Positions 34,451 to 53,010 of a stretch of 58,219 nt of DNA are shown in pieces. Position 1 is the stretch's first letter; every line of letters starts with the position of its first letter. The position numbers were made by a program, and so were the translations under genes. Source of the stretch: Alphaproteobacteria bacterium (GTDB taxonomy: Bacteria; Pseudomonadota; Alphaproteobacteria; CADEGL01); assembly GCA_026400755.1 (NCBI GenBank), contig JAPLOM010000013.1, positions 1 through 58,219 on the forward strand, in the 5' to 3' direction. The notes under the pieces were generated by a model, which had not been told where the DNA came from, ran no database searches, and saw only the letters and a program-made list of their open reading frames with translations.

Positions 34451-34762
34451 ATGCTCTTGATCAACTGCCCCTGGTGCGGTCCCCGCGACGAGATCGAGTT
34501 CAATTGCGGCGGCGAGGCGCATATCGCCCGCCCGGCCGACCCGGCCGCGCTGTCCGATGCCGAGTGGGCGGAGTATCTCTTCATGCGCAAGAATCTGAAG
34601 GGGCTGCATTACGAGCGCTGGCACCATTCCTATGGCTGCCGCCAGTGGTTCAACGCCGCGCGCGACACCGTGACCCATGAGATCCATGCCACATACAAAA
34701 TGGGCGAAACACCGCCCGTGGTGGCGGGCGCCGACGGGATCGTGAAGGGGAGCAGCTCGTGA
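34451..34762 (+). CDS. soxD: Sarcosine oxidase delta subunit
   Basis: 103 aa, the family's normal length. The zinc-binding Cys/His set is visible: INCPWCGPRDE (C6, C9), H59 and C63 in HSYGCRQWFNAARDT. SoxD is a small structural subunit of the heterotetramer. Its stop overlaps the GTG start of soxA. The order B-D-A-G is the classic one. Confidence 0.95.
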   Translation: MLLINCPWCGPRDEIEFNCGGEAHIARPADPAALSDAEWAEYLFMRKNLKGLHYERWHHSYGCRQWFNAARDTVTHEIHATYKMGETPPVVAGADGIVKGSSS

Positions 34763-37700
34763 AGCGCAGTGAAGCCCGGCTGGATACGGGCGGCCGCGTC
34801 AACCGCGACCGTGTCCTCAACTTCACCTGGAACGGCAAGCCGTATAAGGGGCTGGAGGGCGACACGCTGGCGTCGGCGCTGTTAGCCAACGGCATTTCGC
34901 TGATTGGGCGCAGTTTCAAATACCACCGGCCGCGCGGCATCTTCTCCGCGGGCGCGGAAGAGCCCAACGCCATCGTGCAGTTGGAGGCGGGCGCCTACAC
35001 CCAACCCAATGTGAAGGCCACGCAGATCGAGCTTTACGAAGGGCTCGAGGCGCGCAGCGTCAATTGCTGGCCGACCGTGGAGTACGATTTCGGCGCGGTC
35101 GCCAATCTGTGCGCGAAAATCCTGCCGGCGGGCTTCTACTACAAGACCTTCATGTGGCCGTCGCGCTTCTGGCTGACCTACGAGTATTTCATCCGCCGCG
35201 CCGCGGGTCTGGGCCGCGCGCCGAAAGAGGCCGATCCCGACATCTACGACAAGGCGCATGCCCATTGCGATGTGCTGGTTGTGGGCGGCGGGCCAGCAGG
35301 GCTGGCCGCGGCACTGGCCGCGGCGCGCACCGGCGCGCGCGTCATCCTGGCCGATGAACAGAGCGAGTTCGGCGGCGATCTTCTCGGCCGTCGCGATGTG
35401 ATGGACGACGCGCCTGCTGTGGAATGGGTGCGGAAAGTGGTGGAAGAACTGGCGTCCTTTTCCGAGGTGCGCCTGCTGCCGCGCTCGACCGTGTTCGGTT
35501 ATTACGACCACAACTATCTGGCCATCGCCGAGCGGCGCACGGACCATCTGCATCCCAAGGACGGTTTGGGCAAGCCGCGCCAGCGCCTGTGGAAGGTCCG
35601 TGCCAAGCAGGTGGTGTTGGCCACGGGTTCGATCGAGCGGCCGCTGGTGTTCGCCGACAACGACCGGCCCGGCGTGATGCTGGCCGAATCGGCGCGCACC
35701 TATCTCAATCGCTATGGCGTGAAGGCCGGCCGCCGCGCCGTCATCTTCACCAACAATGACAACGCCTATGCCGCCGCCATCGACCTGGCTGACGCGGGCG
35801 TGGAGATCGGCGCCATCGTCGATCTGCGTCCGGACGTGCAGGGGCCGTTGCCGCAGAAGGCGCGCGCGCGCGGGCTGGAGATCCTGGCGGGCGAAGCCAT
35901 CGTCGCGACTCATGGCGGCAGGCGCGCGCAGTCGGTCGAGGTCATGCTGCTGAGCCCCGAGGGCGACCATGTCCACGGTACCGCGCGCAAGATCGATTGC
36001 GATCTGGTCTGTGTCTCGGGCGGCTGGAGCCCAACGGTGCACCTGTTCTCCCAATCCGGCGGCAAGCTGACTTATGACGCTGGGCGCGCCTGCTTCGTGC
36101 CGGCCAAGTCCAAGCAGGCTGAGCGTTCCGCCGGCGCCTGCCATGGCACCTTCGGCGTGGCCGATTGTCTGGATGAAGGCTTCGCGGCCGGCCTTGCCGC
36201 CGCGGGCACCGCGGGTTTCGCCACGGCCGGTATTTCGCTGACGGCGCCCGCTGTGGAGCAGCCGGGCGAGGCGGGTTTGCGCGCCCTGCCCATCGTGCCG
36301 GGCAAGACCGCGGTCGGCCACGGCAAGGCCAAGCATTTCGTCGACCTGGCCAACGACGTGACCGCCGCCGACGTGCGGCTGGCCGCGCGCGAGGGCTATC
36401 GCTCAGTCGAGCACACGAAGCGCTACACCACGCTTGGCATGGGCCCCGACCAGGGCAAGACATCGAACGTGCCCGGCCTCGCCATCCTGGCCGATGCGTT
36501 GGGCAAGGAGATCCCGGACGTTGGCACCACCACCTTCCGTCCGCCCTACACACCGGTTTCCTACGGCCTGCTGGCTGGGCGCGACGTGGGCGAGATGTCG
36601 GACCTCACGCGCACGACGCCCATCCACGAATGGCACGCCATGACGGGTGGCGTGTTCGACGACGCGGGGCAGTGGCGGCGGCCCTGGTATTACCCGCGCG
36701 CGGGCGAGGACATGACGGCCGCGGTGCGGCGCGAGTGCCGCGCGGTGCGCGAAAGCGTCGGCATCATGGATGCCTCGACGCTGGGCAAGATCGAGCTCGT
36801 CGGCCCGGACGCGGTCAAGGTGTTGAACCAGGTCTATGCCAACGCCTGGGACAATCTGGCCGTGGGGCGGTGCCGCTACGGCCTGATGTTGGGCGAGGAC
36901 GGCATGGTCTTCGGCGACGGCGTGACCGCACGCCTCGGCGAGCATCGCTACTTGATGACGACCACCACCGGCGGCGCAGCGCGCGTCTTCGGCTGGATCG
37001 ACGATTGGCTCCAGTGCGAATGGACCAACTGGAAGGTGTTCATCACCTCCGTCACCGAGCAGTGGGCAACCGTGTCCATCGCGGGCCCGCGCGCGCGCGA
37101 CCTAGTGCGCGAGCTGGCGGTCGGGACAGACGTGTCGGCAGACGCCTTTCCGCACATGGCCATCCGCGAAGGAAAGGTGGCTGGATTCCCGGGCCGCATC
37201 GCGCGTATCAGCTTCACGGGCGAGCTGGGCTTCGAGCTCAGCGTGCCGGCGAGCTACGGCATGGCGTTGTGGACGGCCTGCGTCACCGCGGGCGCCAAAT
37301 ACGGTCTGACGCCCTTCGGCACCGAGGCCGTGCACGTCCTGCGCGCGGAGAAGGGCTTTATCGTCAACGGCCACGAGTTCGACGGCACGGTCACGCCCCA
37401 AGACCTCGGCATGGCGTGGGCCGTGAACGCATCCAAGCCCGACTTCCTCGGCCGCCGTTCGCTCGAGCGCTCGGACATGAAGCGCGCGGACCGCAAGCAG
37501 CTCGTGGGGCTGCAGGTGCAGGACGCGACCGCGGTGCTGCCCGAGGGCAGTCAGGTGGTCGAGCGGGTGCTCAAGGCGCCGCCGATGCCCATGATCGGCC
37601 ACGTCACGTCCAGCTACTGGAGCGAGACGCTCAAGCGCGGCATTGCCCTCGCTCTCGTCGCGGGCGGCCATGCGCGCATGGGCCAGACCGTCCACATCCC

Positions 37701-37779
37701 GCTCGAGGACAAGGTGCTCGACGCGGTCGTGGTCTCGCCCGTGTTCTACGATCCGGAAGGGAAGCGTCTCCATGGCTGA
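34759..37779 (+). CDS. soxA: Sarcosine oxidase alpha subunit
   Basis: 1006 aa. An N-terminal 2Fe-2S-ferredoxin-like fold without obvious cluster Cys (residues about 15-105, with RSFKYHRPRGIFSAG) is followed by an NAD-binding flavoprotein-like domain (VLVVGGGPAGLAAALAAARTG, near residue 172) and a C-terminal GcvT-like folate domain (about 620-1000). The folate domain converts the methylene released by SoxB to 5,10-methylene-THF. GTG start inside the soxD stop. Length fits SoxA; an 8-nt overlap with soxG shows coupling. Confidence 0.94.
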   Translation: MKRSEARLDTGGRVNRDRVLNFTWNGKPYKGLEGDTLASALLANGISLIGRSFKYHRPRGIFSAGAEEPNAIVQLEAGAYTQPNVKATQIELYEGLEARSVNCWPTVEYDFGAVANLCAKILPAGFYYKTFMWPSRFWLTYEYFIRRAAGLGRAPKEADPDIYDKAHAHCDVLVVGGGPAGLAAALAAARTGARVILADEQSEFGGDLLGRRDVMDDAPAVEWVRKVVEELASFSEVRLLPRSTVFGYYDHNYLAIAERRTDHLHPKDGLGKPRQRLWKVRAKQVVLATGSIERPLVFADNDRPGVMLAESARTYLNRYGVKAGRRAVIFTNNDNAYAAAIDLADAGVEIGAIVDLRPDVQGPLPQKARARGLEILAGEAIVATHGGRRAQSVEVMLLSPEGDHVHGTARKIDCDLVCVSGGWSPTVHLFSQSGGKLTYDAGRACFVPAKSKQAERSAGACHGTFGVADCLDEGFAAGLAAAGTAGFATAGISLTAPAVEQPGEAGLRALPIVPGKTAVGHGKAKHFVDLANDVTAADVRLAAREGYRSVEHTKRYTTLGMGPDQGKTSNVPGLAILADALGKEIPDVGTTTFRPPYTPVSYGLLAGRDVGEMSDLTRTTPIHEWHAMTGGVFDDAGQWRRPWYYPRAGEDMTAAVRRECRAVRESVGIMDASTLGKIELVGPDAVKVLNQVYANAWDNLAVGRCRYGLMLGEDGMVFGDGVTARLGEHRYLMTTTTGGAARVFGWIDDWLQCEWTNWKVFITSVTEQWATVSIAGPRARDLVRELAVGTDVSADAFPHMAIREGKVAGFPGRIARISFTGELGFELSVPASYGMALWTACVTAGAKYGLTPFGTEAVHVLRAEKGFIVNGHEFDGTVTPQDLGMAWAVNASKPDFLGRRSLERSDMKRADRKQLVGLQVQDATAVLPEGSQVVERVLKAPPMPMIGHVTSSYWSETLKRGIALALVAGGHARMGQTVHIPLEDKVLDAVVVSPVFYDPEGKRLHG

Positions 37780-38377
37780 CAGCTATTTCCGCCAGACGGC
37801 GCTGGCGCCGCTCGGCCTCGCCGCCAAGGCGACCGACGCGCCCGGCGAGGCGGGCGTCCTCCTCTCCGAGCGGCCCTTGGCTGGGCAGGTCAACCTGCGC
37901 GGCGACGGCGGATCGGTGGAATTTCTTCAGGTCGTGCGCACCACCCTCGGCTATGCGCTGCCCACGGAGCCGAATACGGTCACGCAGGGCGCAAACAGCC
38001 GCGCTTTGTGGCTCGGACCGCACGAGTGGCTCCTGGTGGCGCCCTTGGAGGCGGCCCTCGTGCCAACGCTCGAGCAGGGCCTGACCGGGCGCGCTTTCGC
38101 GGCGACGGAATTGGGCGATGCGCGCGCCGTGATTGGCCTTTCCGGCCGCAACGCCCGCGACGTGCTGGCCAAAAGCTGCCCGCTCGACCTGCATCCCAAA
38201 TCCTTTGGCCCCGGCCGCTGTGCCCAGACGAAATTGTCCAAGATCGCGGCCATCATCGAGCAGCGTGACGACGCGCCCAGCTACGAGATTTATGTTGCCC
38301 GCAGCGTGGCGCGCTACGCTTGGCGCTGGCTGGAAGACGCGGGCAGCGAGTACGGCGTCGCCGTCATCGCCGGCTAA
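37772..38377 (+). CDS. soxG: Sarcosine oxidase gamma subunit
   Basis: 201 aa. Gamma subunits are poorly conserved; recognisable segments are ALWLGPHEWLLVAP, ARAVIGLSGRNARDVLAKSCPLDLHP and YVARSVARYAWRWLEDAG. The gamma subunit helps form the folate site with SoxA. The ATG at 37772 overlaps soxA by 8 nt. Last gene of soxBBDAG; the next gene is 92 nt on and has a GTG start. Confidence 0.9.
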   Translation: MADSYFRQTALAPLGLAAKATDAPGEAGVLLSERPLAGQVNLRGDGGSVEFLQVVRTTLGYALPTEPNTVTQGANSRALWLGPHEWLLVAPLEAALVPTLEQGLTGRAFAATELGDARAVIGLSGRNARDVLAKSCPLDLHPKSFGPGRCAQTKLSKIAAIIEQRDDAPSYEIYVARSVARYAWRWLEDAGSEYGVAVIAG

Positions 38378-38469: not shown

Positions 38470-40509
38470 GTGGGACAGTACGACGCTCTTCTCAAGCCAC
38501 TGCGGATCAAGAATCTCACCATCCGCAACCGCGTGATGTCGACCAGTCATGCGCCGGGTTACGCCCGCGATGGGCAGGTGACGGATCGCTACATCCGCTA
38601 TCACGAGGAAAAGGCCAAGGGTGGCGTCGGCCTGACGCAATTCGGCGGCGCCACCGCGACCTCCATCGAAAACTCGATCGATTACGGCCAGTTGAACGGC
38701 GCCGACGATTCGATCATCGCGGGCTACCGGCGCATGGCCGACGCCATTCACCGCCACGGCGCCGCCTGCATGGTCCAAATCCGCCATGGCGGCCGGCGCG
38801 AGCGGTGGGATATCGCCAACTGGCTACCGGTCTACGCGCCGTCTGCCATGCGCGAGCCCGTGCACCGTTCCTTTCCGGCCGCGATGGACGCGCACGATAT
38901 CAAGCGCGTGCAGAACGACTACGTCCAAGCCGCGCGGCGCGCGAGGGACGGCGGGCTCGACGGCGTCGAGGTGTCCTGTGCCAACCAGACCTTGATCGAC
39001 CAGTTCTGGTCGCCCGATGTGAACCATCGCAGCGACAAATACGGTGGCAGCCTGGAAAACCGTATGCGCTTTGGGCTCGAGATCCTGGAGGGTGCGCGCA
39101 AGGCGGTGGGTGTTGATTTCGTCATGGGCATCCGCATGAGCGGTGACGAGATGATCAAGCAGGGCCTATCCCAGGACGACTGCATCGCCATCGCGCGCGC
39201 CTATGTGAAAAGCGGCTTGATCGATTTCGTCAGCGTGATCGCCGCGCAAGGGCGCGACTATCGTTCCAATGCCATCAGCTATGTCGGCATGGACGCGCCG
39301 CCCGCGGCCCATCTGCATCTGGCCAGCGCGATCAAGGCCGAGATCGACCTGCCCGTCTTTCATGCGTTGCGCATCACCGATCCGGCCACCGCCAACCGCG
39401 CGCTGGAGGAAGGGCACGTGGACATGGTGGGCATGACGCGCGCGCTCATCTCCGACCCGCACTTCGTCAACAAGCTGCGCGAGGGGCGGGACGACGACAT
39501 CCGTCAATGCGTGGGCGCTGTCTATTGCATCGACCGCGTCTTGCAGGCGAAGGACGCACTGTGCATTCAGAACCCCTCCACCAGCCGCGAGGGCGCGCTG
39601 CCCCATAACGTGGCGAAGGCCCCGCGCAAGCGCCGCGTCGTCGTCGTGGGGGCCGGTGTGGCGGGCTTGGAAGCCGCGCGGGTGTCTGCTGAACGTGGTC
39701 ACGAGGTCGTGTTGTTCGAGCGCGAGGCGCAGACCGGCGGCCAGGTGAACCTGGCGACCAAGGTGGCTTGGCGCGAATCCCTCTCCGGTATTCCGCGCTG
39801 GCTCGACGACCAGGTGCGCAAGCTGGATGTCGATCTGCGCCTGTCGGCAGCGCCCACGGCCGATCAGGTGCGTGCGGAGAAGCCGGACGTGGTCGTCATC
39901 GCCACCGGCGGCCGGCCTAATCCGGGCCATTTCAAGGGTGCGGAGCTGGCAACCACCACTTGGGACATCCTGTCGGGTCGCGTGGCGCCGGCCGAGCGCG
40001 TGTTGCTGGTGGACGACCATGGGGCCGACCAAGCGCCTTCGGTTGGCGAGTTCATGGCCGAGCGTGGCGCGCAGGTCGAAATCGTGACGCCGGAACGCCA
40101 AATCCTTTCCGAAGTTGGCATGATCAATTTCTCGGCCTATCTGCGCCGGCTCTATGCCCGTGGTGTCGTCATCACGCCGGATACGGGCGTGGTCGAGGTT
40201 TATCGCGAAGGCAACACGCTGGTCGCCGTCCTGCGCAATGAATTCACGTTGCAGGAGGAGGAGCGGGTGGTCGACCAAGTGGTGGCCGAACACGGCACGC
40301 TGCCGAACGACGAGTTGTACCAAGCCTTGCGGCCCCATTCCTCGAACGACGGCGAAATCGACATGCGAGCGCTGGTCGATGGAAAGGTCCAGGCCATCCG
40401 CCATAATCCTGAGGCCGTGTTCCAACTCTTCCGCGTGGGCGATGCCTGGACCAGCCGCAACATCCACGCCGCGATCTACGATTCGCTGCGCCTTTGCAAG
40501 GATTTGTAG
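38470..40509 (+). CDS. DgcA-like dimethylglycine/N-methylproline demethylase (first copy)
   Basis: 679 aa trimethylamine-dehydrogenase-type flavoenzyme: an old-yellow-enzyme TIM barrel with FMN (residues 1-340), an iron-sulfur segment, then an ADP/FAD-binding domain starting at VVVVGAGVAGLEAARV (about residue 391). The expected fourth Cys of the CxxCxxCx12C cluster motif is Ala: C347, A350, C353, C365. The Cys that forms 6-S-cysteinyl-FMN in TMADH is not present near residue 30. DgcA with DgcB and ETF N-demethylates dimethylglycine in Pseudomonas. GTG start. A full-length paralog follows, so substrates may differ. Confidence 0.87.
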   Translation: MGQYDALLKPLRIKNLTIRNRVMSTSHAPGYARDGQVTDRYIRYHEEKAKGGVGLTQFGGATATSIENSIDYGQLNGADDSIIAGYRRMADAIHRHGAACMVQIRHGGRRERWDIANWLPVYAPSAMREPVHRSFPAAMDAHDIKRVQNDYVQAARRARDGGLDGVEVSCANQTLIDQFWSPDVNHRSDKYGGSLENRMRFGLEILEGARKAVGVDFVMGIRMSGDEMIKQGLSQDDCIAIARAYVKSGLIDFVSVIAAQGRDYRSNAISYVGMDAPPAAHLHLASAIKAEIDLPVFHALRITDPATANRALEEGHVDMVGMTRALISDPHFVNKLREGRDDDIRQCVGAVYCIDRVLQAKDALCIQNPSTSREGALPHNVAKAPRKRRVVVVGAGVAGLEAARVSAERGHEVVLFEREAQTGGQVNLATKVAWRESLSGIPRWLDDQVRKLDVDLRLSAAPTADQVRAEKPDVVVIATGGRPNPGHFKGAELATTTWDILSGRVAPAERVLLVDDHGADQAPSVGEFMAERGAQVEIVTPERQILSEVGMINFSAYLRRLYARGVVITPDTGVVEVYREGNTLVAVLRNEFTLQEEERVVDQVVAEHGTLPNDELYQALRPHSSNDGEIDMRALVDGKVQAIRHNPEAVFQLFRVGDAWTSRNIHAAIYDSLRLCKDL

Positions 40510-40587: not shown

Positions 40588-42627
40588 ATGGGTCAATACG
40601 ACGCGCTGTTGAAGCCGTTGACGATCAAGAACGTCACCTTCCGCAACCGAGTCTTCAGTTCCAGCCATTCCCCTGGCTATGCCAAGGGCGGTCATATCAC
40701 CGACCGCTATCTGCGCTATCACGCGGAAAAGGCCAAGGGTGGCATCGGCCTGACTCAGTTCGGCGGCGCCACGGGCGTCTCGATCGAGAACTCCTATCAT
40801 TACGGCCAGGTCAACGGCTCCGAGGATTGGATCATCCCGGAGTATCAAAAGATGGCGGCCGGCATTCATAAGCACGGCGCCAAGTGCACGGTGCAGCTGA
40901 CCCATGGCGGCCGGCGCGAGCGCTGGGACGCCGAGAACTGGTTCCCGGCCTACTCGCCATCCTGCCGCCGTGAGCCGGTGCACAAGGCGTTCCCGGCGGA
41001 GATGGAAGACCACGACATCCGCCGCATCGTGAAGGATTACGGCCAGGCTGTGCGGCGCGCGAAGGAAGGGCACCTGGACGGCGTCGAGCTCTCCTTCCAG
41101 GCGGGCACGCTGATCGAGCAGTTCTGGTCGCCGGCCATGAACTTTCGCACCGACAGATATGGCGGCAGCGTGGAGAACCGGGTCCGTTTCGGCCTCGAAG
41201 TGCTGGAGGAAGTGCGCAAGGTCAACGGCGACTATCTCGTCGGCATCCGCATGCCGGGTGATGAGATGTTGAAGGACGGTTTGAATCAGCGCGATTGCAT
41301 CGAGATTGCCAAGATCTACGCCAAGTCCGGCATGGTGGATTTCATCAGCATCGTTGCCGCGCAGGGCGCGGATGCGGTGTCTAGCGCGTTGATCTGGCCG
41401 ACCATGTGGGTGCCGCCCGGGGGCTGGCTGCCGCTGGCCAGCGCGGTGAAGGCGGAAGTGGACGTGCCTATCATCCACGCGGCGCGCATCGCCGACCTGC
41501 CGACCGCCAATCGCGCGGTCGAGGAAGGCCATGTCGACATGGTCGGCATGACGCGTGCGTTCCTGGCCGATCCGCATCTCCTGAAGAAGGCGATGGAGGG
41601 TCGCGAGGACGATATCCGGCAGTGCGTGGGCGCGGGCTACTGCGTCGACCGCGTCATCTCCGGCCACGACACGCTGTGCATCCAGAACGCGGCCATGAGC
41701 CGCGAAGCGGCCATGCCCCACGTGATCGCCAAGACCGCGAACGGCGTGAAGCGCGCCGTGGTGGTGGGTGCGGGGCCGGGCGGCCTGGAGGCCGCGCGCG
41801 TGCTCGCCGAGCGCGGGCACAAGGTGACGCTGTTCGAGCGCGAGGCTGAAACCGGCGGTCAGGTGAATATCGCGGCCAAGGCGCCGTGGCGCGTCTCGAT
41901 CCAGGGTGTGCAGCGCTGGCTCGACGGCCAGGTGCGCAAGCTGGGCGTGGATATCCGCACAGGTGTCGAGGCGAAAGCGGACGACGTGATGGCGCTGAAG
42001 CCCGATGTGGTGATCGTCGCCACGGGCGGGCATCCTAACAAAGGCTGGTACACGGGCAGCGACCTGGCCGTTTCGACCTGGGACATTCTGTCAGGGAAGG
42101 TCGAGCCCGCCGATAACGTCTTGCTGTTCGACGAGAGCGGTGCGCAACAGGGCGCGTCCACGGCGGAATTCATCGCCAAACGCGGCTCCAAGGTCGAGAT
42201 CGCGACCACCGACCGCACGATCTGCATGGAGCTGGGCGACACCAACGCCGCCGCGTTTCTGAAGGAGCTGTATCAGGCCGGAGTCCTCATCTCGCCCGAC
42301 CTGCGCCTGACCAATATCTATCGCGAGGGCAACCAGCTTGTCGCGGTGCTGGCCAACGTCTTCACCCAACAAGAAGAAGAGCGGGTTGTTGATCAGGTGG
42401 TGGCTGAGTGCGGCACCATGCCGAACGACGCGCTCTATTTCGCCCTCAAGCCCTTGGCCAAGAACTTGGGCGAGGTCGATCTGCGCAGCGTGGCCGACGC
42501 CGGACCCAGCGCGCTGGAAGTGAATCCGAATGGCGCGTTCCAGTTGTTCCGCGTGGGCGACGCCTGGGCCAGCCGCAACATCCACGCGGCCATCTACGAC
42601 TCCCTGCGTCTGTGCAAAGACATTTGA
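40588..42627 (+). CDS. DgcA-like dimethylglycine/N-methylproline demethylase (second copy)
   Basis: 679 aa, exactly the length of the preceding paralog and alike along its whole length. The iron-sulfur region again has three Cys with Ala at the usual second position (C346, A349, C352, C364). Differences are marked in the barrel loops (for example residues 260-290, where SSALIWPTMWVPPGGW replaces a SNAISYVGMDAPPAAH stretch), close to where substrate sits, arguing for a different N-methyl substrate. ATG 40588 with CGGAGAGACC upstream. dgcB follows 10 nt after. Confidence 0.88.
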   Translation: MGQYDALLKPLTIKNVTFRNRVFSSSHSPGYAKGGHITDRYLRYHAEKAKGGIGLTQFGGATGVSIENSYHYGQVNGSEDWIIPEYQKMAAGIHKHGAKCTVQLTHGGRRERWDAENWFPAYSPSCRREPVHKAFPAEMEDHDIRRIVKDYGQAVRRAKEGHLDGVELSFQAGTLIEQFWSPAMNFRTDRYGGSVENRVRFGLEVLEEVRKVNGDYLVGIRMPGDEMLKDGLNQRDCIEIAKIYAKSGMVDFISIVAAQGADAVSSALIWPTMWVPPGGWLPLASAVKAEVDVPIIHAARIADLPTANRAVEEGHVDMVGMTRAFLADPHLLKKAMEGREDDIRQCVGAGYCVDRVISGHDTLCIQNAAMSREAAMPHVIAKTANGVKRAVVVGAGPGGLEAARVLAERGHKVTLFEREAETGGQVNIAAKAPWRVSIQGVQRWLDGQVRKLGVDIRTGVEAKADDVMALKPDVVIVATGGHPNKGWYTGSDLAVSTWDILSGKVEPADNVLLFDESGAQQGASTAEFIAKRGSKVEIATTDRTICMELGDTNAAAFLKELYQAGVLISPDLRLTNIYREGNQLVAVLANVFTQQEEERVVDQVVAECGTMPNDALYFALKPLAKNLGEVDLRSVADAGPSALEVNPNGAFQLFRVGDAWASRNIHAAIYDSLRLCKDI

Positions 42628-42637
42628 AGGCGCGGCG

Positions 42638-44530
42638 ATGATTCCGCTTCAGTGGCTGATCGGGATTTGCGTGGTGGTGGGCGCGGTCTGCGCCCTATGG
42701 CGCGCGCGCCGCTGGTTCCGTGGACAGCCCGCGAAGGTCGATTTCGTGCGCGGCCTCATGCGCTATCCGCGCAGTTATTTCGTCGACCTGCACCATATCG
42801 TCGCGCGCGATCCCTATACCGCGCGCATGCACATGATGGTGGCGGGCGGCTTCACGGCTGCTTTGTTGCTCACGCTCGCGGTCCATCTGTTCAATATCGA
42901 TTCGCGCGTGCTGGCGTGGCTGCTGCTCGTGTTCCTCGCGTTGATGGGGGTGGGCGCGGCCTTTGTCGCCATGCGTCGCAGCCCCAAGCGCGCGCGCCTG
43001 TCCGCGGGTGGCTTCAGCCGCCTGCCCTGGAGTCTGTTCGCCTTCGCGGCCGCTTTCTTCCTGGCCACCTTACCCAAGGCCGGTTTGGTCGCGTCCTTCG
43101 CGGCGCTTTCGGTACCCGGCATCGTGGTGCTGTTGCTGGCCGCCTGGGGCTGCGCCGAGATGGTGGCGTTCCTGCCGCTCGGGCCGATGAAGCATTCCTT
43201 CGCGGGGGCCATGCACCTGATCTGCCACCCGCGCTTCGCGCGTCTGGGCGCGGCGCGGCCCGATTCGGGTTTGAAGCCGCTTGATCTCAGCGCGCCAAAG
43301 CTCGGCGTCGAGACGCCGGCCGACTTCAAGTGGAACCAGTTGCTGGGCTTCGACGCCTGCGTGCAGTGCGGGCGCTGCGAGGTGGTGTGCCCGGCTTTCG
43401 CGGCCGAGCTGCCGCTCAATCCCAAAAAGTTGATCCAGGATTTGGCGCGTGCGGTCGATCCCGGCGGCAACGACCTGGCGTATGCGGGCAGCTCTTATCC
43501 GGGCCGCTCCGTGGGCCACGCCCATGGCGGGCCTTCACAGCCGATCATCGGTGATGGCGCGATGATCCATCCCGACACGCTGTGGTCTTGCACCACATGC
43601 CGTGCGTGCGTGCAGGAATGCCCGATGATGATCGAGCATGTCGACGCGATCATCGATCTGCGCCGTTTTCAGGCACTGGAGAAGGGCGCGGTGCCCGGCA
43701 AGGCGCCGCTGGTGCTAGCCGAGTTGCGCGCGACTGACACGCAGAGCGGCGCCGCGCTGGCCAGCCGCCTCGACTGGGCGGCTGATCTATCGCTGCCGCT
43801 TATTTCCACCAAGGGCGAATGCGACGTGCTTCTGTGGCTGGGCGAGGGGGCGTTCGACCTGCGCAACCAGCGTACGCTGCGCGCGCTCGTGCGTCTGATG
43901 CGCCACGCCAAGATCGACTTCGCGGTCTTGGGCGAGGAAGAACTGGATACAGGCGATCTGGCCCGCCGCCTGGGCGACGAAGCCACGTTCCAAGACTTGG
44001 CAAAGCGCAATGCGGCCACGCTGGCGAAATACCGCTTTCGCCGCATCGTCACGGCCGATCCGCATGTCTTCCATAGCCTGCGGAACGAATATCCGGCGTT
44101 CGGCGCGCGTCATGAGGTGCTGCACCACACGATGCTGCTCGACGAGCTGATGACCAATGGCGCCTTGCCCAAGACCAAGGCGCAGCCGACGAAGACCACC
44201 TATCACGATCCCTGCTATCTGGGCCGTTACAACGGCGAGATCCGCGCGCCGCGTGCGATCCTGGATGCGATCGGGGTGGAACGAGTCGAGATGGAGCGTT
44301 CGGGTATGCGCTCCATGTGCTGCGGCGGCGGGGGCGGCGCGCCGGTCACCGACATCGCGGGTAAGAAGCGCATTCCAGACGTGCGCATGGAGCAAGCGCG
44401 TGAAACAGGCGCAGCGGTCGTCGCTGTGGCCTGCCCCAACTGCGCCGTCATGCTGGAGGGTGTGGTGGGGCCGCGGCCGGAAATTTTCGATGTGGCTGAG
44501 CTTCTTCTTCAGGCGGTGGAGGCGGCATGA
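42638..44530 (+). CDS. dgcB: DgcB-like membrane iron-sulfur electron-transfer protein
   Basis: 630 aa. Five hydrophobic segments occupy about residues 4-20, 67-84, 92-112, 130-146 and 152-182. Two ferredoxin-type [4Fe-4S] motifs follow (C241/C244/C247/C251 and C318/C321/C324/C328), then CCG-type Cys-rich segments (DPCYLGRY, MCCGGGGGAP, ACPNCAV). This matches DgcB, which works with DgcA and an ETF; the membrane part should pass electrons to the quinone pool. ATG 42638 is 10 nt after the second dgcA; the stop overlaps etfA (ATGA). Confidence 0.9.
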   Translation: MIPLQWLIGICVVVGAVCALWRARRWFRGQPAKVDFVRGLMRYPRSYFVDLHHIVARDPYTARMHMMVAGGFTAALLLTLAVHLFNIDSRVLAWLLLVFLALMGVGAAFVAMRRSPKRARLSAGGFSRLPWSLFAFAAAFFLATLPKAGLVASFAALSVPGIVVLLLAAWGCAEMVAFLPLGPMKHSFAGAMHLICHPRFARLGAARPDSGLKPLDLSAPKLGVETPADFKWNQLLGFDACVQCGRCEVVCPAFAAELPLNPKKLIQDLARAVDPGGNDLAYAGSSYPGRSVGHAHGGPSQPIIGDGAMIHPDTLWSCTTCRACVQECPMMIEHVDAIIDLRRFQALEKGAVPGKAPLVLAELRATDTQSGAALASRLDWAADLSLPLISTKGECDVLLWLGEGAFDLRNQRTLRALVRLMRHAKIDFAVLGEEELDTGDLARRLGDEATFQDLAKRNAATLAKYRFRRIVTADPHVFHSLRNEYPAFGARHEVLHHTMLLDELMTNGALPKTKAQPTKTTYHDPCYLGRYNGEIRAPRAILDAIGVERVEMERSGMRSMCCGGGGGAPVTDIAGKKRIPDVRMEQARETGAAVVAVACPNCAVMLEGVVGPRPEIFDVAELLLQAVEAA

Positions 44531-45882
44531 GCGAGGAACGCATCCGCCGTGACCCGCGCGCCGAACGCGAGACACGCCGCGCCCGCGCGGTAGAGGCCGA
44601 GGAAGCGCTTGCTCCGGCGGCAAGCGAATCTCCATCCGGCCGCATCCGCCGCGATCCCCGTGCCGAGCGTGCCGCGCGCACGGGCCGCGCCGCGGAACCA
44701 GTGGCTGCCCAGCCTTCTGCCGTCCCCGAATCCGAATCGGGTCGCGTTCGCCGTGATCCGCGCGCAGAACGTGCCTCACGCACCGGCCGCGCGACTCCCG
44801 TTGCGCCTCAACCGGCAACGCCTGTGCCTAGCGGCCGCGTGCGTCGTGATCCAAGGGTGGACAGGACGGCGCAGCGGCAGGCCACGGCCGCGCGGGCCGA
44901 GGCCGCCGCGCCGGTCAAGACGGTGGCCGATCCGAAATTCCTGATCTTGGCCGTCCCCGATCTGGAGGATGCGCGCCTGTCGAGCCACGACAAGGATGTC
45001 ATCGGCGCGGCGCGCGGCCTGGCCGATGCGGGTGGGGGCGCGGTCGTGGTGCTGGCTTTCACCGGACCTGAGGGCGTGAAGGACGGTTTGGGCGAGGCGG
45101 GCGCCGACCGGATGCTGCGCTTCGCCGATGCGTCCTTCGCCGGCTATGCGCCCGAGCGGCGCGCCGCGGCGGTGCTGGCCGCGATCCAGGCTCTCAACCC
45201 CCAGCACGTTCTATTCCCCGATACGGGCGTGGTCGGCGGCGACGTCGGCCGCCGCGTGGCCGTGGCGCTCGGCGACCGTGCGGCGAGCAACGTGCAGCGC
45301 GTGGCGCCCGACAGGATCACGCGCCGGGGCCGAGGCGGTCGCGCCGATTTCGCGCTGGCGCCGCCGCGCGTGCTGTTGGTCGCGGCGGAAGCGGCCGATC
45401 CCGTCATCGACGAACGCTACGAGGCGCGCGAGCTGCCCGCGCCGCGCACCGAGGCGGTGCCGCGCGTCAAGGATCGCGGCTTGGCCGCGACCGATCCCGC
45501 GACCGTGCCGATGGCCGAGGCCGACTTCATTGTCAGCGCGGGCAATGGTGTGCACGACTGGGACGCGTTTCATCGCGTGGCCGCGGCGCTGGGCGCCAGC
45601 GAAGGCGGCAGCCGTCCGGTGTGCGACGCCGGGCACCTGCCGCGCCATCGTCAGGTCGGCGCATCGGGCACATTGGTCGAGCCGCGCTGCTATGTGGCGC
45701 TCGGCATCGCGGGCGCTCCCCAGCATTTGCAAGGTATCTCGAAGGTCGAGCGGGTGGTGGCGATCAACGCGGATGCCCATTGCGACATGGTGAAGCGCGC
45801 CGATTTGGCCGTGGTGGGCGATGTGCAGGCCCTGATGCCGGCGCTGGAACGCATTGCCAAGGAGCGCCGTCATGGCAATTGA
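44527..45882 (+). CDS. etfA: Electron transfer flavoprotein alpha subunit with N-terminal RRDPRAER repeats
   Basis: 451 aa, longer than usual because residues 1-130 are an Arg/Ala/Pro-rich region with four copies of R(I/V)RRDPR(A/V)(E/D)R (residues 5-14, 39-48, 73-82, 104-113). The ETF-alpha domain follows, ending with the FAD-binding stretch LGIAGAPQHLQGISKVERVV and INADAHCDMVKRADLAVVGD. As far as I recall, ETF-alpha proteins of the dgc type carry a single RRDPRAE-like motif at the N-terminus; here it is multiplied. Overlaps dgcB by 4 nt and etfB by 11 nt. It would accept electrons from the DgcA demethylases. Confidence 0.87.
   Translation: MSEERIRRDPRAERETRRARAVEAEEALAPAASESPSGRIRRDPRAERAARTGRAAEPVAAQPSAVPESESGRVRRDPRAERASRTGRATPVAPQPATPVPSGRVRRDPRVDRTAQRQATAARAEAAAPVKTVADPKFLILAVPDLEDARLSSHDKDVIGAARGLADAGGGAVVVLAFTGPEGVKDGLGEAGADRMLRFADASFAGYAPERRAAAVLAAIQALNPQHVLFPDTGVVGGDVGRRVAVALGDRAASNVQRVAPDRITRRGRGGRADFALAPPRVLLVAAEAADPVIDERYEARELPAPRTEAVPRVKDRGLAATDPATVPMAEADFIVSAGNGVHDWDAFHRVAAALGASEGGSRPVCDAGHLPRHRQVGASGTLVEPRCYVALGIAGAPQHLQGISKVERVVAINADAHCDMVKRADLAVVGDVQALMPALERIAKERRHGN
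44539..44865 (+). repeat. In-frame tandem repeat encoding four RRDPRAER units
   Basis: Copies encode residues 5-14 (44539-44568), 39-48 (44641-44670), 73-82 (44743-44772) and 104-113 (44836-44865) of EtfA. Periods are 34, 34 and 31 codons. Cores differ at synonymous positions, so the repeat is old rather than a recent slippage product. Linkers are Ala/Pro/Glu-rich and likely unfolded. Confidence 0.85.
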
Positions 45883-46645
45883 CGTCGCGGTGCTGGTTTC
45901 CGTCGGACGTCACCCCGTCTCGGGCCGCGCGCGCCGCGCCGACGCCGACGCGCGTGCGGTAGAGCTGGCGCTCAGCATCGCCGGCGCGAACGTGCGGTTG
46001 ATCCATGCGGGCGATCCGGGTGAGCCGGCGTTGCGCGACTATCTGGGCATGGGCGCAAACACGATGACGGTCTTGCGCATGGCGCCCGAGGCCGATCCCG
46101 TGCTGCCCTTGAGCGCGCATCTATCATCCATGCGGCCGCAAATCGTGCTGATGGGCACGCGGGCCGAGGGCGGCGAGGATAGCGGCCTTGTTCCCTATCT
46201 GGTGGCTCAAGCGCTGGAAGTCCCTCTGGTCCCCGGCATCGTCAGCCTGTCGCTCGCGGGTGAACGGGCGGAAATGCTGCAGGGTCTGCCGCGCGGACGT
46301 CGCCGCTCGCTGGCTGCGTCGCTGCCGCTGGTCGCGACCGTGCCCGTGATGGCGCCCGCGCCTCGCATGAGCGCGTTCGGCCTTGCCCGGCGGGGCACGA
46401 TCGAAGTGAAGGATGTAACTGCGGCTGCCGACGAAGCGCGCGCGGCTTGGACCGAAGGCCCGGCGCGCCGCCGGCCCAAGCGCATTAAGGTGATGAAGGC
46501 GGCCAGCGCCGCCGACCGCGTGCGCGCGGTGACCGAGATGGCCGCCGGTAAGGGCAAGGTCTTGCAGAACCTGCCGCCCGACGAGGCCGCCAAGGCCATT
46601 TTCGACTACCTGGTCGCCGAAGGAATCGTCCAGGCGAAACCGTAA
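45872..46645 (+). CDS. etfB: Electron transfer flavoprotein beta subunit
   Basis: 257 aa. ETF-beta outline: an N-terminal VAVLVSVGRHPVSGRARRADADARAVELAL segment (nucleotide-domain start), LMGTRAEGGEDSGLVPYLVAQALEVPLVP near residue 95, and a C-terminal KVMKAASAADRV segment. It is the divergent dgc type rather than the fatty-acid-oxidation type. ATG 45872 lies inside the end of etfA with GGAGCG upstream. Last obvious gene of the sox/dgc run, since the next gene has its own SD 20 nt later. Confidence 0.87.
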   Translation: MAIDVAVLVSVGRHPVSGRARRADADARAVELALSIAGANVRLIHAGDPGEPALRDYLGMGANTMTVLRMAPEADPVLPLSAHLSSMRPQIVLMGTRAEGGEDSGLVPYLVAQALEVPLVPGIVSLSLAGERAEMLQGLPRGRRRSLAASLPLVATVPVMAPAPRMSAFGLARRGTIEVKDVTAAADEARAAWTEGPARRRPKRIKVMKAASAADRVRAVTEMAAGKGKVLQNLPPDEAAKAIFDYLVAEGIVQAKP

Positions 46646-46675: not shown

Positions 46676-47500
46676 ATGACGCGATCGCAGGCGGAAAAAG
46701 GCGCGGCCTTCAAAGCGCTGCACGAGCGCCCCGGCTGCTTTGTGATGCCCAATCCCTGGGACGCGGGTTCCGCGCATCTCTTGGCCGGTCTTGGCTTCGA
46801 GGCGCTGGCCACGACCAGTGCGGGTTTCGCATTCTCCATCGGGCGGCGGGATGGTGAGGGCAAGCTCAGCCGTGACGATGTGCTGGAGAACGCCCGCGTC
46901 ATCATCGGTGCGACGGATTTGCCGGTCAGCGCCGACTTGGAAGGCGGCTTCGGCGACGCGCCGGAGGCAGCCGCGAAGACAATCACCGAGGCGGCGCGCG
47001 CGGGGCTCGTCGGTGGCTCTATCGAAGACGCTACCGGGTGCAAGGATGCGCCCATTCACGATTTCGGCTTGGCGGTCGAGCGAGTGAAGGCCGCGGTGGC
47101 CGCGGCCCGCGCGCTGCCGTTCCCCTTCACGCTGACGGCCCGTGCCGAAAACCTTGCCTATGGCCGACACGATATGGCCGACACGATCCGGCGCTTGCAA
47201 GCCTATCAGGGCGCGGGAGCCGACGTGCTTTTCGCGCCCGGGCTGAAGTCCGAAGACGATATCCGAACGATCACGCGCGCGGTGGACCGGCCGGTGAACG
47301 TGGTCATCGGCCTACACGCTGCGTCATGGACGGTCGAAAAATTGACCGCGCTGGGCGTCAAGCGCATCAGCCTCGGGTCGAGCTTCAGCCGCGCCGCGCT
47401 CGGCGCTTTCTTGCGCGCGGCCGAGGAGGTCAAGGAACGCGGCTCCTTCTCCTTCGTCAGCGCCGCGATTCCCTACGGCAAGATCAATGGGCGCTTTTAG
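46676..47500 (+). CDS. Isocitrate lyase/PEP mutase superfamily protein
   Basis: 274 aa TIM barrel. Family hallmarks are PNPWDAGSAHLLAGLGFEAL, the metal-binding LPVSADLEGGFGD (Asp and Glu), GGSIEDATG and LTARAENLAYG. Members include methylisocitrate lyase, oxaloacetate decarboxylase and phosphonomutases; this short branch is common in proteobacteria and mostly uncharacterised. It follows etfB by 30 nt and converges with the third M24 gene. A role in handling an oxo-acid product of the island is possible but not shown. Confidence 0.82.
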   Translation: MTRSQAEKGAAFKALHERPGCFVMPNPWDAGSAHLLAGLGFEALATTSAGFAFSIGRRDGEGKLSRDDVLENARVIIGATDLPVSADLEGGFGDAPEAAAKTITEAARAGLVGGSIEDATGCKDAPIHDFGLAVERVKAAVAAARALPFPFTLTARAENLAYGRHDMADTIRRLQAYQGAGADVLFAPGLKSEDDIRTITRAVDRPVNVVIGLHAASWTVEKLTALGVKRISLGSSFSRAALGAFLRAAEEVKERGSFSFVSAAIPYGKINGRF

Positions 47501-47509
47501 CGCGCAGGG

Positions 47510-48718
47510 TCATGCGACGATCATTTTACGGTCGAGTTTGGACAGGATCTCCAGGCCGTTCGGCGTCATCAGCAGCATATCGATATAGCTGCCGCCGTTT
47601 CCGCCCGGCCAGTCTTCCATGACGTCGAACACGTTCTCGTAGTTCGTCGTCATGCCGGGTTCGAAATCGACCGCTTCGAAGCCAAGGCCACTGTGGAATG
47701 TGTGGCCGACCCAGTCGGGTGGGATCGCGATGCCCATGTCGTAGCCGCCCACCAGCCAGGCGTATTTCTTCAAGCCAACGGATTCGATGTAGGCGTTGGC
47801 CACCTCGTGCAGCCGGGTCATGGAATCGCCCGGTTTGATCTCGCGGACGACGATCTCGATGCTTTTCGAGGCCTTCTCGTAGAGGTTGGTCCAGCGCTTG
47901 TCCGGCTCGCCGATCGAGAAGATGCGCGCCAGGTCGGCGTGATAGCGGTGATAGGAGCCGGAGAAGTCGACCCAGACGATATCGCCCTGCTGAATCTTGC
48001 GGCGGCTGGGCGGGACATGATGCACGCAGCCGCGCGGACCCGTGCGCACGGTGCTACGGATCGCGGGCTCCTCGCCGCCATGCTGCGCCATGACGTAGTG
48101 GGCTAGGCCCTGGATGTCGATTTCGGTCATGCCGGGCTTCAGCGCCTTTTGCACTTCAATCATGGCCGCATCGGCGATGGCCTGGGCCTTGCGCATGCAG
48201 GCGATCTCGGCGGGCGACTTGTTCATCTTCACCCGGTCCACCAGCCAAGAGCCGTCCACGGTTTTGGCGCCGGCCGCTTCCATGCGCTGCTCGATGGCGG
48301 TCAGCACGATGCCGTGGGGCGCCAGGCTCCAGCGTTCGACGGCGGCCGTGCCCTTGAGCCAGCCGCGTACCTTGAGCGTGTCGACGATCAGCTCGACGGC
48401 TGGTTCGTATTTGCGTCGCGAGACGAAGACCGCGTCGTCGAAGCGGCCGGTGCCGCTCTTGACCAGGTCGGCATGGGATTCCGAATCGACGAACAGCGTC
48501 TTGTCCTGGTCGGCCCGGATGAACAGGCCGGTGGGCGTCGTGCGCCGGTACCAGATCGAATCGTAGCCCGTCAGATAGGTGATATTGGGCGGGGAGGAGA
48601 CGAACAGCAGGTCGATCTTCCGCGCCGCCATGGCGCGGCGCACCTTGGCCAGGCGCTCGGCATACTCGGCGGCCGGGAAGGGAGGGCCCCATGCGGTGCC
48701 GTCCTGGGTGTTTTTCAT
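47510..48718 (-). CDS. M24 family peptidase/hydrolase retaining both Asp ligands
   Basis: 402 aa. Creatinase N-like domain then M24 domain. Unlike the two paralogs at 11737 and 17714 it keeps both metal-ligand Asp residues (D251 and D262 in VWVDFSGSYHRYHADLAR), but the ligand His is replaced (L322 in WLVGGYDMGIAIPPDW), as judged by alignment to the IPPDW motif. It therefore sits between metallo- and metal-free M24 types. ATG 48718 is preceded by AAGGGGA and lies 10 nt after the dehydrogenase gene, so the two form an operon. Substrate unknown; an N-substituted amidino or Xaa-Pro-like compound is possible. Confidence 0.82.
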   Translation of the reverse strand: MKNTQDGTAWGPPFPAAEYAERLAKVRRAMAARKIDLLFVSSPPNITYLTGYDSIWYRRTTPTGLFIRADQDKTLFVDSESHADLVKSGTGRFDDAVFVSRRKYEPAVELIVDTLKVRGWLKGTAAVERWSLAPHGIVLTAIEQRMEAAGAKTVDGSWLVDRVKMNKSPAEIACMRKAQAIADAAMIEVQKALKPGMTEIDIQGLAHYVMAQHGGEEPAIRSTVRTGPRGCVHHVPPSRRKIQQGDIVWVDFSGSYHRYHADLARIFSIGEPDKRWTNLYEKASKSIEIVVREIKPGDSMTRLHEVANAYIESVGLKKYAWLVGGYDMGIAIPPDWVGHTFHSGLGFEAVDFEPGMTTNYENVFDVMEDWPGGNGGSYIDMLLMTPNGLEILSKLDRKMIVA

Positions 48719-48728
48719 GCTGTTCCCC

Positions 48729-51143
48729 TTAAGCGCGCAGCTTTTCGTTCTTCGGGTCGTAGAGCGCGCCCTCGCACACGGTCGCGGAGTGCAGGTCGCC
48801 TAGAATCTCCACCTGCAGCTTCGTGCCCGGCGCGGCGAGGTTTGGCGCCACATAGGCCAGCGCGATGCTCTTCTTCACGCTGTGGCCATAGCCGCCCGAG
48901 GCGACCACGCCCGCGTAAGTTCCGTTGGCGAAGATCGGACCATTGGTGAAGGCGTCCGAATCCTTGGCGTCCACATCCAGCACCACCAGCTTCCACTTCG
49001 GGTCGGCCTTGCCGGCCGCTTCCAGCGCGCCACGACCGATGAAGTCGCGGCTTTCCATCTTCACCAGCCGGTCCAGCCCGGCCTCCAGCGGCGTGACTTC
49101 GGCCGTCAATTCGGTGCCGAGCGCGCGGTAGGCTTTCTCCAGGCGCATCGAGTTGGTCGCGCGCATACCGAAATTGGCGATGCCGAATTCTTTTCCGGCC
49201 TCCATCAGCGCGTCGTAGAGGCGCGCCTGATAGGCCACGTTGTGATGCAGCTCCCAGCCCAATTCGCCCACGTAGCTGACGCGCAAGGCACGCACGGGCA
49301 CATTGGCGACCTCGATCTCTTGCGCGCTCATCCATGGGAAGGCGCCGTTCGATAGATCGGCCCGGGTGAGCTTGTCCAGCACCGCGCGCGATTTCGGCCC
49401 GGCCAGCACCAGGGCGCCGTCGCGCAAGGTGACGTCCTCCAGGCACACGCCGCCGTCCTTCGGCATGTGCCGCTCCAGCCAGTCTCGGTCGATCAGATGG
49501 GTGATCGCGGCCGTGACCAGGTAGAAACGCCCCTCGCCCAGCCGCGCCAGGGTGCCTTCACCCGCGATGCGCCCCTTGGGCGTCAGCATCTGGGTCAGAA
49601 TGACGCCGCCGATCTTCTTGGGTGGGCGGTTGGCGCAGAGCCGGTCGAGAAAGGCGTAAGCACCCGGGCCGGAAATCTCGAACTTGGAGAAGCCCGAAAG
49701 ATCGAGCAGGCCCACGCGCTCGCGCACCGCCTTGCATTCCGCGGCCACGTGCTCGAAGGCCTCGGTGCGGCGGAAGGTCAGGCTCTCCTTCGCGCCCTTG
49801 GGCGCGAACCATGACGCGCGCTCCCAGCCGAAGCGGGCCTCGAACACGGCGCCCTGCGCTTTCAAGCGGTCGTAGATCGGTGTCTGTTTGGCAGGGCGGC
49901 CCGCCGGACGTTCTTCGCCTGGGTAGGTGACGGCGTACATATATCTGTACACCTCGCAGGCGCGCTCGACCGTGTAGTCCAGCGTGGCGTAGGGGCCGAA
50001 GCGCCGCGGGTCGAACTCGTACATGTCCATCTCGGGCTCGCCGTCCACGATCCAATCGGCCAGATACTTGCCCGCGCCGCCGCCCTGGGCGATGCCGACG
50101 CTGAAGCCGCATTGGCACCAATAGTCGGGCAGGCCCGCCACGGGGCCGATCAACGGGTTGCCATCGGGCGTGTGAGGTATGGGGCCGTTGACCACGCGTT
50201 TGATACCGGCTTTGGCCAGCATCGGAGCACGCTCTATCGCCATGTCCACGATGGCTTCGATGCGGTCGATGTCGGGCGGCAAAAGATCCGCGCCAAACTG
50301 GGCCGGGATGCCGTCCACGGCCCATGGCCGGCCTTCCGGTTCGTAGGGGCCGAAGATCACGCCTTTGTTTTCCTGGCGCATATAGAAGGACGCATCAGGG
50401 TCGCGCAGGACTGGGAACTCGCGGCCGTATTCGATCACCTCGGGGATGTTCTCCGTCACGAGGTATTGGTGCTCCATCGAAACGATGGGCAGGTTGCGAC
50501 CGGTCATCTTGCCGACATCGCGCGCCCAGGTGCCGGCCGCGTTCACCAGGATTTGGCAGCGGATCGAACCTTTGTCGGTTTCGACCACCCATTCTCCAGA
50601 CGGCGTTCGGTGCATCCCCGTGACTTTGGTATGGCGATAGATTTCGGCGCCGCCGTCGCGCGCGCCCTTGGCCAGGGCGTGCGTAACGCTGGAGGGATCG
50701 ACATACCCGTCGGCCGGCGTGTGCGCAGCGGCGATGACGCCCTTCAAGTCGATCAGGGGGTGGTGCTGCTTGATCTCCTGCGGCGTCAGGACCTGGAAGG
50801 GCAGGTCGATATTCTTGGCCTGGCCGGCCAGATGCTTGAATTGATCCACCCGGCCTTTGGTCTTCGCGAGGCGGATGGAGCCCACTTTGTGAAAGCCCGT
50901 AGCCTGGCCTGTTTCCGCCTCCAGCCGCTCATAGAGCTCGGTCGAGTATTTGTGAATACGGCTCAGATTCAGGCCGACTTCGAAATGCGGTGTCAGGCCC
51001 GCTGCATGCCAGGTGGAACCCGACGTCAGCTCGGCTTTTTCGATCAGGACGACGTCGCGCCAGTCGCGTTTGGTCAGATGGTAAAGAAGACTGCAGCCCG
51101 CGATGCCGCCGCCGACGATGACCACGCGCGCATGGGTCTTCAT
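48729..51143 (-). CDS. Dimethylglycine/sarcosine dehydrogenase-like flavoprotein with folate domain
   Basis: 804 aa. DAO domain ([17 protein letters not shown], residues 8-24) with the STWHAAGL segment that carries the His for covalent FAD in mitochondrial DMGDH/SARDH; the central FAO and C-terminal GcvT-like folate domains (about residues 420-800) contain [17 protein letters not shown]-type [26 protein letters not shown] and [11 protein letters not shown]. It would oxidise an N-methyl group and pass the C1 unit to THF. ATG 51143 is chosen as the start next to the FAD motif. It is followed by an M24 gene and faces fhs across a 187-nt gap. Confidence 0.9.
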
Positions 51144-51254
51144 AGAGCGCCCCCGTATCGAGTTTCGTCGACTATGGAAGCGCGCGCGCGGGCCGGTCAA
51201 CTCGTCGCGCTTTTGCGCTGCACAGTGGCCCCGTTGTCAGGGTTACCAAACTCG

Positions 51255-51270
51255 TGTAGGCCGTTCGACC
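51255..51270. promoter_or_regulatory. Operator candidate, site 2 (fhs/DMGDH-type gap)
   Basis: TGTAGGCCGTTCGACC, 60 nt before the fhs ATG and inside the 187-nt gap between fhs and the divergent dehydrogenase/M24 operon. It matches sites 23355 and 53890 at 11 of 16 shared positions, though its own dyad symmetry is weaker. Confidence 0.4.
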
Positions 51271-51330
51271 GAATGTGGGGAGCCGAAAGACGGCCGGTTC
51301 GCGGGCGTCGGCATCCGAGGGGGCGACGCC

Positions 51331-53010
51331 ATGGCCGCGGTAAGAAGCGATATCGAGATCGCGCGCGACGCGCGTATGAAGCCGATCGCCGAGATTGGCG
51401 CGAAACTGGGCATCCCCGAAAAAGCGCTGCACCCCTATGGCCACGACAAGGCCAAGATCGGGCTCGATTTCATCGAAGGGCTGAAAGACCGGCCCGATGG
51501 CAAGCTGATCCTGGTCACCGCCATCTCGCCCACGCCCGCGGGCGAGGGCAAGACGACCACCACCGTGGGTCTTGGCGACGGGCTCAACCGCATCGGCAAG
51601 AAGGCCGCCATCTGCCTGCGCGAGCCGAGCCTGGGTCCGTGCTTCGGCGTGAAGGGTGGCGCGGCCGGCGGCGGCTATGCCCAGGTCGTGCCGATGGAAG
51701 AGATCAATCTTCATTTCACTGGGGACCTGCACGCCATCGGCGCGGCCAATAATCTTCTGGCCGCCCTGATCGACAACCACATCTATTGGGGCAACGAGCT
51801 GGAGCTCGACGCGCGCCGCGTCACCTGGCGCCGGGGCCTGGACATGAACGATCGCGCCTTGCGCTCGATCGTGAACTCGCTGGGCGGCACGGCCAACGGA
51901 TTCCCGCGCGAGGACGGCTTCGACATCACTGTCGCATCCGAGGTGATGGCCATCTTCTGCCTGTCGACCGGCTTGGCTGATCTGCAGAAGCGCTTGGGCA
52001 ACGTCATCGTCGGCCAGACGCGCGACCGTCGCTTCGTACGCGCGGAGGAGCTGAAGGGCGCGGGTGCTATGGCCGTCTTGCTGAAGGACGCGCTGATGCC
52101 GAATTTGGTGCAGACGTTGGAGAACAACCCGGCCTTCGTCCATGGCGGGCCGTTCGCCAACATCGCCCATGGCTGCAATTCGGTGCTGGCGACCAAGACC
52201 GCGCTGAAGCTGGCCGACTATGTCGTGACCGAGGCCGGTTTTGGCGCCGATCTGGGCGCCGAGAAGTTCTTCGACATCAAGTGCCGCAAGACGGGCCTCA
52301 AGCCTTCGGCCGCCGTCATCGTGGCCACCGTGCGCGCGCTCAAGATGCACGGCGGCGTCGAGAAGGCGAACCTGGGCAAAGAGAATCTCGACGCGCTCCG
52401 TGCCGGTGCCGCCAACCTGGCGCGCCATGTGGAGAACGTGCAGGGCTTCGGCGTGCCCGCGATCGTGGCCATCAACCGCTTCGTCTCGGACACCGATGCC
52501 GAGATCAAGGTGATCGAGGAGATCTGCGCGGGTCTCGGCGTGAAGGTCGTGCCCTGCACCCATTGGGCCGAGGGCGGCAAGGGCACCGAAGCGCTGGCGC
52601 GCACCGTGGTGGAGACGGTCGAGGCGGGCAAGGCGGACTTCCGCGTTCTGTACCCCGACGACATGCCGCTGTGGGACAAGGCGCGCACGATCGCCCAGCG
52701 CATCTACCGCGCCAAGGACATCACGGCCGACAAGACGGTCAAGGACCGCTTCGCCGAATATCAGAAGGCCGGTTTCGGCAATTACCCGATCTGCATGGCC
52801 AAGACCCAGTACAGCTTTTCGACCGACCCGAACGCGAAGGGCGCACCCACGGACCACATCGTGCCGATCCGCGAATTGCGCTTGTCGGGCGGCGCCGAAT
52901 TCTTGGTCGCAGTCTGCGGCGAGGTGATGACGATGCCCGGCCTGCCGCGCGTGCCGGCCGCCAACTCGATCTACATCAACGACAAGGGTCAGATCGAAGG
53001 GCTGTTCTGA
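51331..53010 (+). CDS. fhs: Formate-tetrahydrofolate ligase
   Basis: 559 aa, the normal family length. It makes 10-formyl-THF from formate, THF and ATP, or runs in reverse to release ATP and formate. The P-loop [19 protein letters not shown], the [20 protein letters not shown] segment, [20 protein letters not shown] and [17 protein letters not shown] are all diagnostic. ATG 51331 is the conventional start, with GAGGGGGCG upstream. Its location among three demethylation systems that load methylene groups onto THF fits a C1-balancing role. Confidence 0.96.

Follow-up and report, generated by a model that had tools for sequence, protein, structure and literature searches.

The etfA gene at the center of this analysis belongs to an operon inside a methylated-amine demethylation island (positions 31849–53010) of the window, by which we mean the whole stretch of 58,219 nucleotides that was analyzed (alphaproteobacterial assembly GCA_026400755.1, contig JAPLOM010000013.1). 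The genes of this island and the repeat units within EtfA are the following:

31849–33153: sarcosine-oxidase-like gene, DAO
34759–37779: sarcosine-oxidase-like gene, alpha
37643–38377: sarcosine-oxidase-like gene, SoxG
38470–40509, plus strand: DgcA paralog 1 (Oxidored_FMN and Pyr_redox)
40588–42627, plus strand: DgcA paralog 2, 63% identical to paralog 1
42638–44530, plus strand: DgcB, membrane iron-sulfur protein (DUF3483, 4Fe-4S, and CCG), single copy in the genome
44527–45882, plus strand: EtfA, ETF alpha, with a repeat-bearing N-terminal tail of ca. 130 residues and a normal ETF core (Pfam, NCBIfam)
44539–44568, plus strand: unit 1 of EtfA, RIRRDPRAER (residues 5–14)
44641–44670, plus strand: unit 2, RIRRDPRAER (residues 39–48)
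44743–44772, plus strand: unit 3, RVRRDPRAER (residues 73–82)
44836–44865, plus strand: unit 4, RVRRDPRVDR (residues 104–113)
45872–46645, plus strand: EtfB, ETF beta (NF051844 with 300 bits, below the cut-off of 350)
46676–47500: PEP-mutase-like gene
47510–48718, minus strand: M24/creatinase-like gene
48729–51200, minus strand: DAO and GCV_T dehydrogenase
51103–53010: formate-tetrahydrofolate ligase-like open reading frame (assigned by inspection only)

The etfA reading frame is intact and encodes 451 residues, with a start codon that overlaps the stop codon of dgcB (ATGA) and a GGAGG sequence just upstream. Because the ETF domains recognized by Pfam begin only at residue 148 (PF01012 at residues 148–301 and PF00766 at 329–404), the first ca. 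130 residues are an addition to the ETF core. RRDPR starts at residues 7, 41, 75, and 106 of this tail (nucleotides 44545, 44647, 44749, and 44842), so that successive units are spaced 34, 34, and 31 residues apart. With 22% alanine, 21% arginine, no aromatic residues, and a net charge of +10, the tail falls on the disordered side of a Uversky plot and the core on the folded side, as predicted from composition. AlphaFold2 with two-sequence alignments yielded a mean pLDDT of 33 for EtfA and 35 for DgcB, values too low to be read structurally even over the cores. Searches with the tail gave no sequence match among PDB chains at E-values up to 10 and none in Pfam, where the tails of two relatives produced sub-threshold matches only (E 0.036 and 3.6). 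A twin-arginine export signal was ruled out by inspection, given that no hydrophobic stretch follows the arginine pair.

A first-pass annotation of this DNA had described four R(I/V)RRDPR(A/V)(E/D)R units with this spacing in an EtfA extension of ca. 130 residues, and its description holds both on the intact reading frame and against shuffled sequences. Among 100,000 composition-preserving shuffles of EtfA residues 1–135, one RRDPR arose in 633 and two or more in 0, so the four-unit tail is not a product of chance. Units 1 and 2 match in 10 of 10 residues but in only 24 of 30 nucleotides; a recent tandem duplication of the DNA was ruled out because synonymous sites differ between units. All four units are also present in the nearest relative, L008, which appears to be the same MAG contig as G001 and whose EtfA is 91% identical to that of the window and differs from it by 4 linker indels. 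Residue changes between the two proteins affect 2 of 40 positions in the units, 22 of 90 in the linkers, and 17 of 321 in the core (units versus linkers, Fisher p 0.007). With 21 synonymous codon differences alongside these few residue changes, the units, unlike the linkers, are constrained at the protein level about as strongly as the core. Unit 4 is the most diverged of the window's four.

The best NCBIfam match of the window's EtfA is NF051845, and its 361.8 bits, below the curated cut-off of 600, make it a relative of this equivalog rather than a strict member; alphaproteobacterial EtfA generally score under this cut-off. It otherwise has the properties of a dgc-type EtfA, namely PF01012 together with PF00766, the gene order DgcA-DgcB-EtfA-EtfB, and RR(D/N)PR units (four in this case), and it is the single dgc-type EtfA of its genome.

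EtfA sequences were collected with NF051845 at the level of the phylum, the class, and several sub-groups, and neighborhoods were fetched around the matches. The resulting survey set contains 78 distinct EtfA that adjoin DgcB and have a readable N-terminus, while 30 ordinary ETF-alpha of the same class, among them the second ETF-alpha of the window's genome, served as controls. At least one unit is present in 77 of the 78 DgcB-linked EtfA compared to 0 of the 30 controls, which all begin straight at the ETF core, and the expected tie of the motif to the dgc context was thus borne out. Unit A was scored four times in 3 sequences, three times in 1, twice in 64, once in 9, and not at all in 1; the third "unit" of L142 is a pattern artefact (LDPRPRLDRS). 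The first-pass annotation had given dgc-type EtfA one similar RRDPRAE motif, which is inexact in that two is the common state.

A draw of 397 genomes contained 38 with DUF3483/DgcB, and these are exactly the 38 with a dgc-type EtfA (Fisher p about 6e-54, uncorrected for relatedness). The EtfA profile used here is slightly biased, with the N-terminus lying inside it, and the DUF3483 search is independent of this profile; several EtfA matches, the window's included, aligned only from about profile position 37–56 onwards. In nearly all loci the order DgcB-EtfA-EtfB is constant with DgcA adjoining, and in nearly all members the first unit lies close to the N-terminus. Across relatives we found one to four units at spacings of 31 to 47 residues. 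The first unit of the 77 sequences has an invariant R at −2 and P at +1, followed in conservation by D (96%), R at +2 (95%), and E at +4 (87%), with drifting flanks. L152 (G970) is the only DgcB-linked EtfA without a clear unit. Its tail (L152/L178) is long and divergent, and the DgcA-like gene of this locus lies downstream of EtfB and not upstream of DgcB. No description of the EtfA tail or of PA5400/PA5401 was found in the open literature, and the repeat-bearing tail is a general and apparently undescribed feature of DgcB-linked ETF-alpha.

Beyond the RRDPR unit (element A), to which the initial description of the module had been confined, a second conserved element (B) of the KRIDRSG or RLRLDRS type belongs to the module and is present in many tails. 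A relaxed expression matched B in 65 of 76, though this loose pattern is less certain than the one for A. The Pseudomonas tail reads IIRRDPRAEW...VIRKNPH...GPNGIKRIDRSG, many alphaproteobacterial tails follow the layout RRDPRxER...RPRFDL...RRDPRAE...RLRLDRS, and Burkholderia-like members have a compact form, KRIDPRRPF...GLKRI. The modules are most often about 33–36 residues apart. Judging from the Pseudomonas and alphaproteobacterial layouts, the ancestral tail seems to have been built of two modules in which an arginine-DPR element (A) is paired with a basic-hydrophobic-D element (B).

The Pseudomonas-type dgcAB-etfAB (fixAB) operon has been described in the context of dimethylglycine demethylation (PMC12093977). 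Its EtfA resembles that of the window in gene order, ETF family, and the N-terminal RRDPRAE unit, and has a weaker second unit (IRKNPH) about 35 residues after the first. Whereas Pseudomonas combines two units and GPNGIKRIDRSG with one DgcA, the window has four RRDPR units, no clear KRIDRSG element, and two DgcA.

The four-unit tail is an enlarged variant, in the window's lineage, of a feature that is general to DgcB-linked ETFs. Within the window's family, four A units are present in the window's genus (G001). The tail of G004 combines four A with three B (RRDPFAER...GRKRIDRT), that of G003 comprises no fewer than three A-B pairs up to the point where its contig ends, and G002 has two A units only (RRDPH). 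Outside this family, no EtfA of our sample exceeded two true units. The EtfA start at L155 (G004) and L156 (G003) is a clear A-B tandem array of alternating RKDPFADR and GRKRIDRT. Genomes of the family encode 6–9 close DgcA paralogs and one DgcB; in the window's genome, six close paralogs (at least 55% identity) are distributed over four places, two of them in the window, again with one DgcB. The DgcA paralogs outside the window, on contigs C61, C10, C2, and C37 of G000, include four close (55–60%) and two distant ones (34–35%), with no second DgcB there. At locus L180 of G003, three DgcA-like genes lie in tandem ahead of dgcB, compared to one in most operons.

DgcB of the window is homologous to EtfD (PDB 9ojn, E 1.6e-69) and shares with it the membrane region, the 4Fe-4S domain, and the CCG domain. 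In mycobacterial EtfD, a membrane ETF:quinone oxidoreductase, repeats are interspersed along a disordered tail, which is where AlphaFold 3 places the contact with ETF, a contact that rests on this model since the EtfD structure was solved without ETF; DgcB is without such a tail (PMC13083937). The window's DgcB likewise stops about 20 residues past the CCG domain and has no EtfD-type disordered C-terminal tail; the repeats are found on the membrane protein in mycobacteria but on the ETF in the window. Another peptide element, the recognition loop of ETF beta in human and Methylophilus ETF, anchors partner dehydrogenases; it is a single copy in the folded beta subunit, in contrast to the repeated, disorder-like N-terminal tail on the alpha subunit of the window.

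We propose, and consider about as probable as all other readings taken together, that the units are docking peptides in a disordered arm of EtfA which bind redox partners of the ETF, most likely DgcB. Conserved short motifs embedded in a disorder-like, faster-changing linker are what characterizes a docking arm, and the window's tail has this form. DgcB is favored as the partner because the presence of the tail tracks DgcB exactly and because its homologue EtfD has a repeat tail modeled onto ETF that is absent from DgcB; linkage of genes cannot single out the partner, since DgcA, DgcB, and EtfB are all neighbors. Two further observations speak against a docking arm: The number of units does not closely follow that of DgcA, as in G002, and L152 is without a clear unit. 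Mechanistically, the EtfA tail would be an intrinsically disordered arm of a dedicated ETF, with disorder judged from composition, and each unit (RR-D-P-R-A-E, joined in most relatives by a second element such as KRIDRSG) would be a short linear motif that recognizes one of the proteins of the demethylation chain. The docked arm could hold reduced ETF close to the iron-sulfur clusters of DgcB while the flavin domain moves back and forth between DgcA-type demethylases and DgcB, and multiple copies on flexible linkers would give the arm a higher effective affinity and a wider reach. Its lengthening in the window's family, from two modules, the usual number, to about four, is seen in genomes whose many DgcA paralogs would share one ETF and one DgcB, a many-to-one wiring that agrees with docking. 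A more far-reaching version, which we regard as possible but speculative, is a multivalent shuttle arm whose A/B motifs dock one ETF on DgcB as well as several DgcA; DgcA-rich bacteria would then lengthen the arm, and mycobacteria would have placed the repeats on the opposite partner, EtfD.

The units could instead bind DgcA-type demethylases, with additional copies enabling one ETF to carry several of them, which is the tether of the first-pass annotation. This reading, which we find rather unlikely, draws on the abundance of close DgcA paralogs in the unit-expanded family and on the two or three tandem DgcA that precede DgcB there (by comparison, G055 has one DgcA, and G361 and G830 have two, with two, one, and two units, respectively). 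Elsewhere, one adjacent DgcA accompanies one or two units, two being the number in the usual operon with its single DgcA, which does not fit well. In G002, an EtfA with two units is accompanied by two adjacent DgcA among 8 in the genome; a strict matching of one unit per DgcA fails in this genome, and the first-pass notion that four copies correspond to the two DgcA paralogs of the window is weakened accordingly. The co-occurrence of many DgcA paralogs and a long tail is suggestive, although it is seen in one family only and fails in G002, and its confinement to one bacterial family makes the expansion of units and DgcA about one evolutionary event.

It is still less probable that the tail is a structural arm which folds back onto either ETF subunit and stabilizes or gates the heterodimer. 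Such an arm would agree with the position of the first unit near the N-terminus and with the divergence of the ETF pair that the tail accompanies (EtfB gave no match in Pfam, and both subunits score under their NCBIfam cut-offs), but the variable number and spacing of units fit independent peptide sites better. We see little likelihood that the basic tail adsorbs to the anionic inner membrane and concentrates the ETF at DgcB with little sequence specificity: DgcB is a membrane protein and the tails examined have net charges of +8 to +13, but charge alone requires neither the invariant D-P nor the conserved E, and exact RRDPR is kept while linkers vary. Least probable of all is neutral growth of low-complexity, GC-rich sequence in which two units work and the others drift, as could be suspected from the Ala/Pro-rich linkers with indels, the different copy numbers within the family, and the divergence of unit 4. 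Against it, the window and L008 share all four units with a conservation as tight as that of the core, while the frequency of changes in the linkers is more than four times that in the units and synonymous sites have diverged.

A short, conserved motif confined to ETFs whose genes adjoin DgcB makes the way in which ETF finds membrane oxidoreductases of the DgcB/EtfD type testable by point changes. Units that vary naturally in number and can be deleted offer a precise handle on ETF docking, and docking by these units would explain the role of an unannotated conserved extension on a common enzyme.
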